Notes under the pieces: generated by a model
What the model was told of the DNA's origin: nothing
The model's input: only the letters and a program-made list of their open reading frames with translations
Database searches by the model: none
Assembly (NCBI GenBank): GCA_030431715.1
Contig: JAUIIO010000001.1
Coordinates: forward strand, 124,001 to 188,000
Length of the DNA: 64,000 nucleotides
From: a bacterium
GTDB taxonomy: Bacteria; Bdellovibrionota_C; UBA2361; RFPC01
Direction of reading: 5' to 3'
Shown: piece after piece, positions 31,856-36,646 of the stretch
Numbering within the stretch: position 1 is the first letter of the stretch
How the letters are laid out: every line of letters starts with the position of its first letter
Translations under genes and position numbers: made by a program

Positions 31856-32097
31856 AACTCACTACTTTATATGTCCCGGTGCTTTCAAGTAAAGAGTACG
31901 AAGCGATTTCCCAAAAGGCCACGTAGATAATTTCCCAAACACCTTGAACCGGAGAGAAAAGTATGAAAATATATCATCCTGATTTTACAGGACTTTGCTG
32001 ATCCGAGTGACAGTACAACTGTGCTGACAGAATGTCAGTACTACCGTATCAATTTCTATTGTAAAACAGAGAGTTTAAAAGCAGGGAGTTTATAAGC
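31856..32097. promoter_or_regulatory. Divergent promoter region, tyrS / rpmG
   Basis: The region has two direct copies of ATTTCCCAAA (31906-31915 and 31930-31939) and a short CTGACA-GAA-TGTCAG inverted repeat (about 32013-32027). I do not identify a regulator or a reliable promoter match. A weak AGG/GGAG-like sequence (GCAGGGAG) precedes the rpmG ATG. Confidence 0.35.
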
Positions 32098-32304
32098 ATG
32101 GCCAAGGCTCAAAAGGAAACGACATTTCTCGTATCTTCAGAAGGGACAGGATTCTTTTACACTATCAGACGCAATAAGCGTAAGAACCGGGGCGATAAGA
32201 AGCTCGCACTCAAGAAGTACGATCCGGTAGCCGGTAAGCACGTTGTCTTCGAAGAGAAGAAACTTTCCAAGCTTAAAAAGAAATACAAGCCAGCAGCTCA
32301 GTAA
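32098..32304 (+). CDS. rpmG: 50S ribosomal protein L33
   Basis: 68 residues. The [19 protein letters not shown] core and [18 protein letters not shown] end match L33. The zinc-binding cysteines of the C+ form are absent, so it is the zinc-independent type. A basic C-terminal extension ([12 protein letters not shown]) makes it a little longer than usual. A hairpin follows the stop. Confidence 0.95.
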
Positions 32305-32332: not shown

Positions 32333-34669
32333 TTGAGGGTGGTTTCTTTGGTCAGTACGCATAAGTCAGCTCAGAATTTAGATAGCGAATCGAAAACTCC
32401 TACGACTGAAGATTCAGTCACAATGGAGGAAGCATCTCCTTTTCAAGCATCACCAGAGGGTGATGAGGAGGCGCAGGATCTCGCGTTAACTGATACTCGT
32501 TCCCGGCAGTTTCTTTCAGATTACAGCACCAGAACTGATGGTGGATACAAGTACCGTGTTGCGGAACGAGACGGAAAGCTTGTTACGGCTGAGAATTTCA
32601 GGCTGGTTGCGTTTTCGCTCATTAACGTTCTTTGTTTTGCTGTCTTTGAACATCTAAATATTATTCCACCGCAAACAAGAGCGTTTTTCATCGCTGGATA
32701 TCTCTCCTATTTTCTTGCTGGCGTGACGATTATCTTCGCATTTAAAGGGTATATTAAGCGTGGGATAAGGAACTTACTCCGCGGAGCAATTACGCGAGCT
32801 ACGTTGTTGTCGATTTTTCTCTTGCTCGCCTTTGGTGGCACTGGATATTTGCTCTTTGAGTCCGAAGCCCGTCTTCTTTTTACTCCACTAGCGGAAGGGC
32901 TTGTTGCTTCGATCTTTCTTGTTTTTCTTTACGAGTCTGTTGTCACAAATTATTTGCACCGGGCAGATGAGCTTTCAGGTTTTTGGCCGCTTAAGGTTCC
33001 CAGAACATACCTTAGGTATGAGAAAAAGATTGGCGATAGCTCAACCGCAACGGTTTCTTCGGAAAGTGTACAGGCTGGGAATGAAGATGCCGTGCTCGAC
33101 AAATCTAATGCTTCCTTACGTTCGGTTCCTCCTGCGGTCTTAAGAGAGGGCGATATGCTTTTTCTTGAATCTGGTGATGTTGTTCCTGCCGACGGCACGA
33201 TACTTCGAGGGAAGTGTATTGTACTTGAGCGCAAGCTGAGTGGTGCAGCCGTGCGTGGCTTCCGTCAAAAAGGGCAGAAGGTCTGGGCAGGCTCTACGTT
33301 GCTCTCCGGAAAGGTAAACGTTGAGGTTACCGCTAGGTGTAATGAATCTGTGCTTTCGACGTTTACAAGTATTCTTGATTCAAGGATTGCTGAGCTTGCG
33401 AAGAGGCGACAGGGGAATTTTACTACGATTAATATTTTAAATGGTCTCCTTCTCTTTTCTGCCGCATGTACGTTTCTCTATTGGAGTCAGGACTATGGCA
33501 AGGGTACAGCATCTGTCGTTGAAAGTTCAGAGTTGTTTTTTGTTCGATTGCGAGCATTTCTCTCTGCGCTTTCAGTGTTGGCGGTTGCGCCTCTTTGTGC
33601 CTTCTTGCTTATCCTCGGGAGAGCTCCTGAGCTCATGCTGACCTCGCTCTTTATGCGTGGGGTACTTGTGGTGAACAACAAAGTGCTTAAGGCCTTTTCA
33701 GGTATCAAGCATTTCGTTATGCACTTTCATCCTGAAGAGCAGGACGGTAGGGCTCACGTTAAGAAATTTGAAATCTTGGACCAGAAATTTGAGAAAAAGG
33801 GACTTCTTGAAGCGCTTGCATGTTTGTTGAGCGTCTCAGAGCATTTCACTGACAGGGCAATTGTTGAGCATGCGGCTGAACAGCTGTGTGCAGGAGCGTT
33901 GCACGATGTTTCTGATGTTCAGGTAGTGCCCGGATACGGCGTGCTTGGACTTGTTGATGGCGCTGACCTAAGTGTCGGCACAGAAGGCTTTTTGATCGAG
34001 CGGGGAATTTATGTTCAACCCTCCGATCTATTCTCTGAGGTTTCGAGTCAGGAAACGCCGGTATACATTGCCATTTATGATCAGGTTATTGCCAGAGTCT
34101 TGATAGGTGAGCCGCTAAGATCGGACGCCAAGGGGTTAAGGGAAAAACTTAAATCGATTAAGAGAAGACTTGTGCTCTGCAGTGATTCCAGTGACAGAGA
34201 AGCAGTAGATAATTTTGGAAAGGGAATTGGATTGGATCTCGCCGAAATATCATCAGATCTCGATGAAAAATCTTATCTTCGTAAGCTTGAGATGCTCTCT
34301 GATGTAAACCGCGGTAGCGCAGCTAGGGGCGGAACAGGTATCGCCCTCTATTCACCTGAACCAGCTCCAAAGAGCATCAGAGAGAAAATTGATATTAGCT
34401 TTAGTCGATTTGATGAGCTTAAGTGGGAGACAGATAGGGCAGATGTTTACCTTATGGATAACGATGTTCAGCGTCTAGCCTCCATTCTTTCTGTTGCTGA
34501 TAATACACGTCGTGTTGTTCTCGTGCTTCAGGTCTTTGGTGCTCTCCTTGCGGGGCTTCTTCTTATAGGGGCTGTAACAGCGAGTTTGCCTCCACTTATT
34601 AACCTGCTAAGCGCTGTTATCGGCGTTATATTTGCGGTACTGCTCTCTTTACGTCTGCTGCCAAGATAA
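32333..34669 (+). CDS. P1B-type ATPase homologue lacking catalytic residues
   Basis: 778 residues with the heavy-metal P-ATPase plan: four N-terminal helices, an actuator domain, two helices, a cytoplasmic N/P region, and two C-terminal helices. The actuator domain is clear (GDMLFLESGDVVPADGT, from G273), and an SEH nucleotide-domain motif persists (SVSEHFTDRAIVEHA). The transport-cysteine region reads PLCA rather than CPC. The phosphorylation motif DKTGT is replaced (VMHFHPEE, His464 at the Asp position), TGES reads SGAA (303-306), and GDGxND is absent. It cannot cycle as a pump, so a regulatory or structural pseudoenzyme role is inferred. Start uncertain: TTG 32333, TTG 32348 (better Shine-Dalgarno spacing) or ATG 32423. 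Confidence 0.72.
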   Translation: MRVVSLVSTHKSAQNLDSESKTPTTEDSVTMEEASPFQASPEGDEEAQDLALTDTRSRQFLSDYSTRTDGGYKYRVAERDGKLVTAENFRLVAFSLINVLCFAVFEHLNIIPPQTRAFFIAGYLSYFLAGVTIIFAFKGYIKRGIRNLLRGAITRATLLSIFLLLAFGGTGYLLFESEARLLFTPLAEGLVASIFLVFLYESVVTNYLHRADELSGFWPLKVPRTYLRYEKKIGDSSTATVSSESVQAGNEDAVLDKSNASLRSVPPAVLREGDMLFLESGDVVPADGTILRGKCIVLERKLSGAAVRGFRQKGQKVWAGSTLLSGKVNVEVTARCNESVLSTFTSILDSRIAELAKRRQGNFTTINILNGLLLFSAACTFLYWSQDYGKGTASVVESSELFFVRLRAFLSALSVLAVAPLCAFLLILGRAPELMLTSLFMRGVLVVNNKVLKAFSGIKHFVMHFHPEEQDGRAHVKKFEILDQKFEKKGLLEALACLLSVSEHFTDRAIVEHAAEQLCAGALHDVSDVQVVPGYGVLGLVDGADLSVGTEGFLIERGIYVQPSDLFSEVSSQETPVYIAIYDQVIARVLIGEPLRSDAKGLREKLKSIKRRLVLCSDSSDREAVDNFGKGIGLDLAEISSDLDEKSYLRKLEMLSDVNRGSAARGGTGIALYSPEPAPKSIREKIDISFSRFDELKWETDRADVYLMDNDVQRLASILSVADNTRRVVLVLQVFGALLAGLLLIGAVTASLPPLINLLSAVIGVIFAVLLSLRLLPR

Positions 34670-34817: not shown

Positions 34818-35180
34818 ATGGCAGAATGTAGCGAAAAAAACATAGAACGATCCACTTCCATATATGTTCACGATGAGCCAGCAGTCATCTCAGAAGGTGC
34901 CGCCGTACCGGCGAGTAAGTTGCTGCTAGCAATGCTTGTAGACCGTCTGGATTGTTTTGTAGAGGCATATCATCACTGTAATGATCCTGAGCATCGGGAG
35001 ATATTTTTTGAAGCAGATGATTGGATCTATGGCTCTGAAGAAGAAGAGCATTTCTTTTCATTCTCATCAACGTGCCGCGAGCTAAAGCTCGATCCCTTAA
35101 AGCTTCAACTTGGTCTTCTTAATGTTACTCTGAGTAAGAAGTTTATCTGGAAGAAGGTGGGGGCTCCGGTGGAGCAGTAG
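34818..35180 (+). CDS. Small hypothetical protein, paralogue of the 36350 gene
   Basis: 120 residues with an AGGAG-type ribosome-binding site. The C-terminal 70 residues share a pattern with the minus-strand gene at 36350-36646: a KLLLAMLVDRL helix, an acidic segment ending in a Trp-containing ADDWIYGS, then FSFSSTCRELKLDPLKLQLGLL. The other protein has RLLAAVLQRAI, ARLWLIDDEP and FAFICEALDLDMQGLREAI. I see no known enzymatic motif. The family looks like a small helical protein with one conserved cysteine. Confidence 0.7.
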   Translation: MAECSEKNIERSTSIYVHDEPAVISEGAAVPASKLLLAMLVDRLDCFVEAYHHCNDPEHREIFFEADDWIYGSEEEEHFFSFSSTCRELKLDPLKLQLGLLNVTLSKKFIWKKVGAPVEQ

Positions 35181-35924: not shown

Positions 35925-36188
35925 TTAGGTTAATTTTTTAAGCTTTACTTTATCAATTTGAATAGCATCAGCGGCGAGTACTTCGAGTTGTTGGAATGTA
36001 GAGTCGCGCTTGAGGTACTCTTCGTCGGCTTCGCTACCCGGTTCGACGTAGAGTATGTCGTCTTCAATGTGGTAGGCCGTTACTCGTCTCAGGTGCTCAA
36101 GGAGTCCCAGCTGGAGTTTCTCATCAAGAGTCTCTAGGAGCTTCTCCCATTTCTCAGGATTGTTACCTTTCTTTGAAGATACATTCAT
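35925..36188 (-). CDS. Small hypothetical protein upstream of yacG
   Basis: 87 residues from the second ATG (MNVSSKKGNNPEK); an upstream in-frame start at 36209 exists. The sequence has a LLETLDEKLQLGLLEHLRRVTAYHIEDDILYVEPG core that I do not recognise. It reads into yacG and is preceded by a strong palindrome (36217-36250). Confidence 0.6.
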   Translation of the reverse strand: MNVSSKKGNNPEKWEKLLETLDEKLQLGLLEHLRRVTAYHIEDDILYVEPGSEADEEYLKRDSTFQQLEVLAADAIQIDKVKLKKLT

Positions 36189-36216
36189 ATATGAATTATA
36201 ACATCCCACGTGAAAA

Positions 36217-36349: not shown

Positions 36350-36646
36350 TTATACAGCTTCCGCTTTAAGCTGTTGACGAGTCGCAGTTGCTCCTTCTGC
36401 TTCTTGCATAACAATCGCTTCGCGAAGGCCTTGCATGTCGAGATCAAGTGCTTCACAAATGAACGCGAATGTAAGAGGTGCATCAGTTGGCTCGTCATCG
36501 ATGAGCCAGAGCCTTGCTCCTTCTTTAAGATCTCCATCTCCAGTAAGAAAATCAGTGATTGCTCTTTGTAGTACAGCAGCGAGTAAACGTCTCTCAGGAA
36601 CGTGTGTTGTGTCCTGTGGGTTTTCAGCATTTTCCCAGAATTTCAT
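36350..36646 (-). CDS. Small hypothetical protein, paralogue of the 34818 gene
   Basis: 98 residues. An AAGGAA ribosome-binding site is placed well upstream of the ATG on the minus strand. The protein shares its helix pattern and the FxxICExLxLDxxxLRxxI region with the 34818 gene, as described there. No known function. The two paralogues lie 1.5 kb apart in opposite orientation, separated by yacG and repeats. Confidence 0.7.
   Translation of the reverse strand: MKFWENAENPQDTTHVPERRLLAAVLQRAITDFLTGDGDLKEGARLWLIDDEPTDAPLTFAFICEALDLDMQGLREAIVMQEAEGATATRQQLKAEAV

Follow-up and report, generated by a model that had tools for sequence, protein, structure and literature searches.

P-type ATPases are usually taken to be defined by their phosphorylated aspartate. 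This residue is described as invariant in a superfamily review from 2023, whose passages searched here make no mention of a catalytically dead family (PMC10654040). In a survey of the superfamily, the DKTGT motif was present in 99.77% of the identified P-type ATPases, and the variants comprised five eukaryotic and 17 bacterial sequences with single point changes (PMC3896382). Loss of most signature residues has been described for the degenerate P4-ATPase-like domain of the Plasmodium guanylate cyclase beta (PMC6592433). A search of the open-access literature for pseudo- or inactive P-type ATPases yielded no bacterial family, in agreement with an earlier note on the DNA studied here, which knew of no such family; an earlier notice elsewhere is possible. 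The gene described below lies in a 64,000-nucleotide stretch (the window) of a bacterial draft genome of 3.97 Mb, and we regard it as nearly certain that its product represents a conserved, non-pumping family of P1B pseudo-ATPases, which was found in one bacterial order.

Gene, neighbourhood and predicted fold

The reading frame of the pseudo-ATPase (32333–34669, plus strand) is uninterrupted over 778 codons. A ribosome-binding-like site, GAGGG, precedes the TTG codon at 32348, which according to the sequence is the likelier start and would yield a protein of 773 amino acids. Directly upstream on the same strand lies rpmG (32098–32304), encoding a bL33 of the type without the CxxC zinc motif; its end is separated from the start at 32348 by 43 nt and it is a likely operon partner. 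A perfect inverted repeat, CTGACA-GAA-TGTCAG, is found at 32024–32038, approximately 60 nt upstream of rpmG, and might, judged from its sequence, have a regulatory function, for example as an operator. The usual, albeit non-obligate, downstream neighbour (34818–35180, plus strand) encodes a helical protein of 120 amino acids for which no usable match was obtained in Pfam, NCBIfam or the PDB. A gene for a protein of 98 amino acids follows 1.2 kb beyond (36350–36646, minus strand), also without usable match in Pfam or NCBIfam. Both genes recur throughout the order, and their products share the pattern ...FSF..vCeaLgld...lR..., so that they look homologous to each other.

For the window protein, Pfam detected the actuator (A) domain (PF00122, E = 3e-17) alone and no N-terminal metal-binding domain. 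The NCBIfam model for heavy-metal P-type ATPases, TIGR01525, matched residues 237–640 (E = 2.7e-40) with a score of 139 bits, which is below the curated cut-off of 346, and it also matched all 21 sequences of the family alignment A1. The A1 profile in turn aligned with Legionella CopA (3rfu) over nearly the whole length (E = 3e-42). The AlphaFold model (mean pLDDT 76.6, pTM 0.73) contains eight membrane helices as well as A, P and N domains, and the top PDB matches found by Foldseek were CopA, ATP7B and ZntA, with alignments of approximately 700 columns and global TM-scores no higher than 0.46; values this low would be compatible with a multi-domain protein modelled in a different domain arrangement. 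By whole-chain homology, A-P-N domain order and number of helices the protein thus belongs to the P1B class, and the eight-helix layout with actuator domain that the earlier note had read from the sequence is borne out.

Along the plus strand, the helices MA, MB, M1 and M2, placed by the AlphaFold model and hydropathy, correspond to positions 32579–32974 (residues ~83–214), followed by the A domain (33104–33346, residues 258–338, PF00122), in which LSGA stands in place of TGE. Alignment and AlphaFold model place M4 at 33524–33616, with APLC instead of the CPC metal site. In the first part of the P domain (33623–33787), DKTGT is replaced by HFHPE, with His464 occupying the column of the phosphorylated aspartate. 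The N domain (33788–34108, residues 486–592) is followed by the second part of the P domain (34109–34468), where TGD (here SDSS) and GDGxND are lost, and by M5 and M6 (34472–34657), taken from the AlphaFold model.

Orthologues, shared losses and genomic context

Searches of the genome contigs with the single window protein as query yielded no matches, whereas the alignment A2 of the sub-family f11 did. Full or near-full orthologues were identified in 22 of the 29 genomes of the order, all with E-values of at most 1.3e-79 against the A1 profile: 21 lie below 1e-177, and the orthologue of genome G005 (L063:3575-5791) reaches 1e-79. In a 23rd genome, G013, an N-terminal fragment is located behind rpmG at a contig end. 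Elsewhere in the class, 17 genomes belonging to other orders yielded no orthologue, and the best match there was a canonical pump (2.4e-53). Similarly, the sole further match among 383 relatives searched, in G292 (5e-60), proved to be a canonical pump in which DKTGT and CPC are both present.

A full copy of the gene is missing from seven of the order's genomes (G001, G003, G007, G009, G013, G025 and G026). Loss in all seven was considered and rejected, since six of the assemblies do not even contain tyrS, the contig of G009 ends right after rpmG, and G013 possesses the N-terminus. Only G007 looks like a case of true absence. Neither tyrS nor an rpmG of this type was found anywhere in its genome. 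Homologues of the 98-aa gene and of a 94-aa gene (35925–36209 in the window) are located in G007 on a 288-kb contig (L146:7752-9125), with no tyrS, rpmG or pseudo-ATPase gene beside them.

A joint alignment of the 22 orthologues with 11 canonical pumps was used to compare the motifs. The phosphorylation motif DKTGT, the dephosphorylation motif TGE of the A domain, a CPC/SPC-type metal site in M4, TGD and GDGxND of the P domain, and the HP nucleotide motif of the N domain are each found in none of the 22, and a further deletion has removed some of the P domain's second half in f11 members. The losses of DKTGT, TGES, CPC and GDGxND noticed in the window are therefore common to the whole family, and no close homologue retains DKTGT. 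Two earlier statements have to be revised. The aspartate itself is indeed replaced in the window species, by histidine, but it is still present at this column in 18 of the 22 orthologues (one has glutamate and two have arginine); it is the following KTGT that is gone in all of them. The SEH motif reported as kept can be read at residues 502–504, but without the proline, and the other 21 orthologues contain neither SEH nor HP.

With respect to gene order, all 19 contigs with a visible junction (18 full genes and the G013 fragment) have rpmG immediately ahead of the gene and in the same orientation, at distances of 0–256 nt over the order; the position beside rpmG, as seen in the window, is hence retained. 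The far side of rpmG is usually occupied by tyrS and a gene for an Smr protein. The 120-aa gene usually follows the pseudo-ATPase gene; in G017 and G027, however, a different contig carries it, and no copy was detected in G014 or G016. In G002 (L039:3761-7327), about 3.6 kb separate the two genes, as compared to 0.1–0.26 kb in other genomes. In two genomes of family f14, which belongs to another order of the class, rpmG adjoins a homologue of the 94-aa gene; no ATPase gene follows rpmG in G031, and in G029 the contig ends there.

Contig breaks no more than a few hundred bases away from the junction between rpmG and the pseudo-ATPase gene were observed in about six genomes (G004:C76/C60, G006:C232/C218, G010:C213/C377, G024:C251/C39, G009:C126 and G013:C144) and seem frequent. 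In G004, G006, G010 and G024, the contig with rpmG and the one with the ATPase gene both stop at the junction. The variable, disordered N-terminus may represent a strain-variable spot.

In a maximum-likelihood tree of 53 sequences, a quick search with long branches and without a fixed root, one branch with an SH-aLRT value of 100 separates the 22 dead proteins from 31 DKTGT-bearing P-type ATPases. Differences between the closest pair of genes amount to 28, 15 and 64% at codon positions 1, 2 and 3, respectively, and other pairs are alike. Such a dominance of third-position changes indicates purifying selection on the protein and not decay, which confirms the earlier view of an intact frame under selection. 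Loss of catalytic residues, a predicted fold and purifying selection thus coincide, as expected for a pseudoenzyme. The genomes are draft metagenome assemblies and their contigs break often near the junction, so that a sequencing error, a mis-assembly or a decaying pseudogene might be suspected. However, the losses are common to 22 independent species with open frames, the same codon-position pattern and conserved neighbours; the orthologues rule out an artefact or a pseudogene, and we assign a practically negligible probability to this explanation.

Regional conservation and possible modes of action

Since the sites for phosphorylation, dephosphorylation and metal binding are gone, the Post-Albers cycle, given the established mechanism of P-type ATPases (e.g., PMC10654040), cannot run, and from its sequence the protein would be expected to show no ATPase activity in the test tube. 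A non-pumping role, as anticipated by the earlier note, remains the best reading of a protein whose predicted fold is of the P-type and whose close homologues all lack DKTGT. The aspartate at the catalytic column in most members might leave room for some phosphate chemistry, and it is the observation from which a residual or altered catalysis at a rebuilt active site could be argued. Yet the Lys-Thr-Gly-Thr that should follow it, TGD and GDGxND are gone, and histidine in the window protein as well as glutamate or arginine in three others occupy the column, which makes such a catalysis extremely improbable.

To see which regions are constrained, the mean pairwise identity per region was compared between the dead family and the canonical pumps of these genomes. 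The N domain is more conserved in the dead family (33% versus 28% in pumps), whereas the A domain is less so (31% versus 42%). Identity falls from 51% in pumps to 22% in the dead family for M3-M4 and from 28% to 16% for MA-MB; for M1-M2 it is 17% in the dead family. The helices MA, MB, M1 and M2 together reach about 16% as compared to 28–37% in pumps, although the low conservation of the membrane helices could partly be due to alignment error at approximately 20% identity. In pumps, conservation is highest in M3-M4 and, among the folded cytosolic parts, lowest in the N domain; the dead family shows the inverse, with the N domain as its most conserved region. Charged residues specific to the family are Asp483, just ahead of the N domain, and Glu551 within it (22 of 22 each), Arg485 (21 of 22; Lys in the window) and Arg588 (19 of 22). 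Of the N-domain glycines, Gly534 and Gly536 of the GxG loop are kept in 17 and 19 of the 22 sequences, and Gly549 in all.

A metal sensor, which the earlier note had suggested, or a passive metal channel would fit the ancestry from a metal pump and the retention of eight membrane helices. However, no cysteine, histidine or methionine is conserved anywhere in the 22-member family, the CPC site is lost throughout, Pfam finds no N-terminal metal-binding domain, and conservation is lowest in the membrane helices, so that we consider this possibility far-fetched. The second role put forward at that time, that of a partner subunit, taken here as a regulator or partner of a canonical P1B pump (for instance CopA or CcoI), is likewise weak and, in our estimation, very unlikely. 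Canonical P1B ATPases do occur in most genomes of the order, the window's own included. Nevertheless, the draft G014 (91% complete) contains the dead protein but neither a TIGR01525 match at 1e-20 nor a DKTGT codon pattern; in the draft G010, TIGR01525 matches the dead protein only; and the remaining match in G004 (95% complete draft) is an insertion-split P-type ATPase below the cut-off. In addition, the pump genes do not neighbour the pseudo-ATPase gene.

What survives of the earlier suggestions is a membrane scaffold. Constraint on the N and A domains together with a relaxed membrane part would fit docking better than metal sensing, channel function or a role as pump subunit, and a membrane-anchored docking or scaffold protein is the mode of action we favour, with somewhat more confidence than doubt. 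According to this model, a heavy-metal P-type ATPase would have lost its residues for autophosphorylation, dephosphorylation and metal binding once, in the ancestor of the order, and the protein would have been kept. The eight helices would act as membrane anchor, the A and N domains as binding surface for a partner, and the protein would probably be made together with bL33 from the rpmG operon, co-transcription being deduced from gene order. The situation in G007, where a long contig at the site appears without both rpmG and the pseudo-ATPase gene, counts against this explanation.

The conserved N domain also allows for another interpretation, namely that it still binds a small ligand, for instance a nucleotide, which it does not hydrolyse but whose presence it signals to a partner; this would make the protein a membrane-bound sensor. 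The kept GxG loop and Gly549 and the new invariant Asp483 and Glu551 in or beside the N domain would be in line with this. On the other hand, none of the 22 members has the adenine-contacting histidine of the HP motif, the Mg-binding residues of the P domain are gone, and f11 members delete part of that domain; we therefore regard such a sensor as unlikely, if still worth consideration. Returning to the docking or scaffold protein, an extension would be that the P-type fold serves, order-wide, as a permanent, non-cycling membrane platform expressed from the rpmG operon and with a functional link to ribosomes or to membrane-associated translation. This extension is speculative and rather improbable at present. 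In any case, the constant position behind rpmG provides a testable lead to the function of the pseudo-ATPase.

Comparison with known P-type ATPases

The closest described relatives are the P1B ATPases of the CopA/ATP7B type (TIGR01525; 3rfu, 7r0g), with which the dead family shares full-length homology, the A-P-N order, eight helices and the predicted fold. It differs from them in the absence of TGE, CPC, DKTGT, TGD and GDGxND, in the lack of a detected metal-binding domain, in a score below the TIGR01525 cut-off, and in the site of constraint, which has moved away from the membrane towards the N domain. The surveyed DKTGT variants (PMC3896382) depart from the motif as well, but by point changes, while here every motif is lost order-wide. 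Most similar among the cases found is the domain of the Plasmodium guanylate cyclase beta, also a P-type ATPase-like module without most signatures; it is, however, eukaryotic, of the P4 class and fused to a cyclase, whereas the dead family is bacterial, derived from P1B ATPases and stand-alone. As far as could be found in the open-access literature, this vertically inherited family would be the first bacterial family of stand-alone pseudoenzymes in the superfamily, and it represents a natural experiment on A and N domains that are maintained without the pump cycle.
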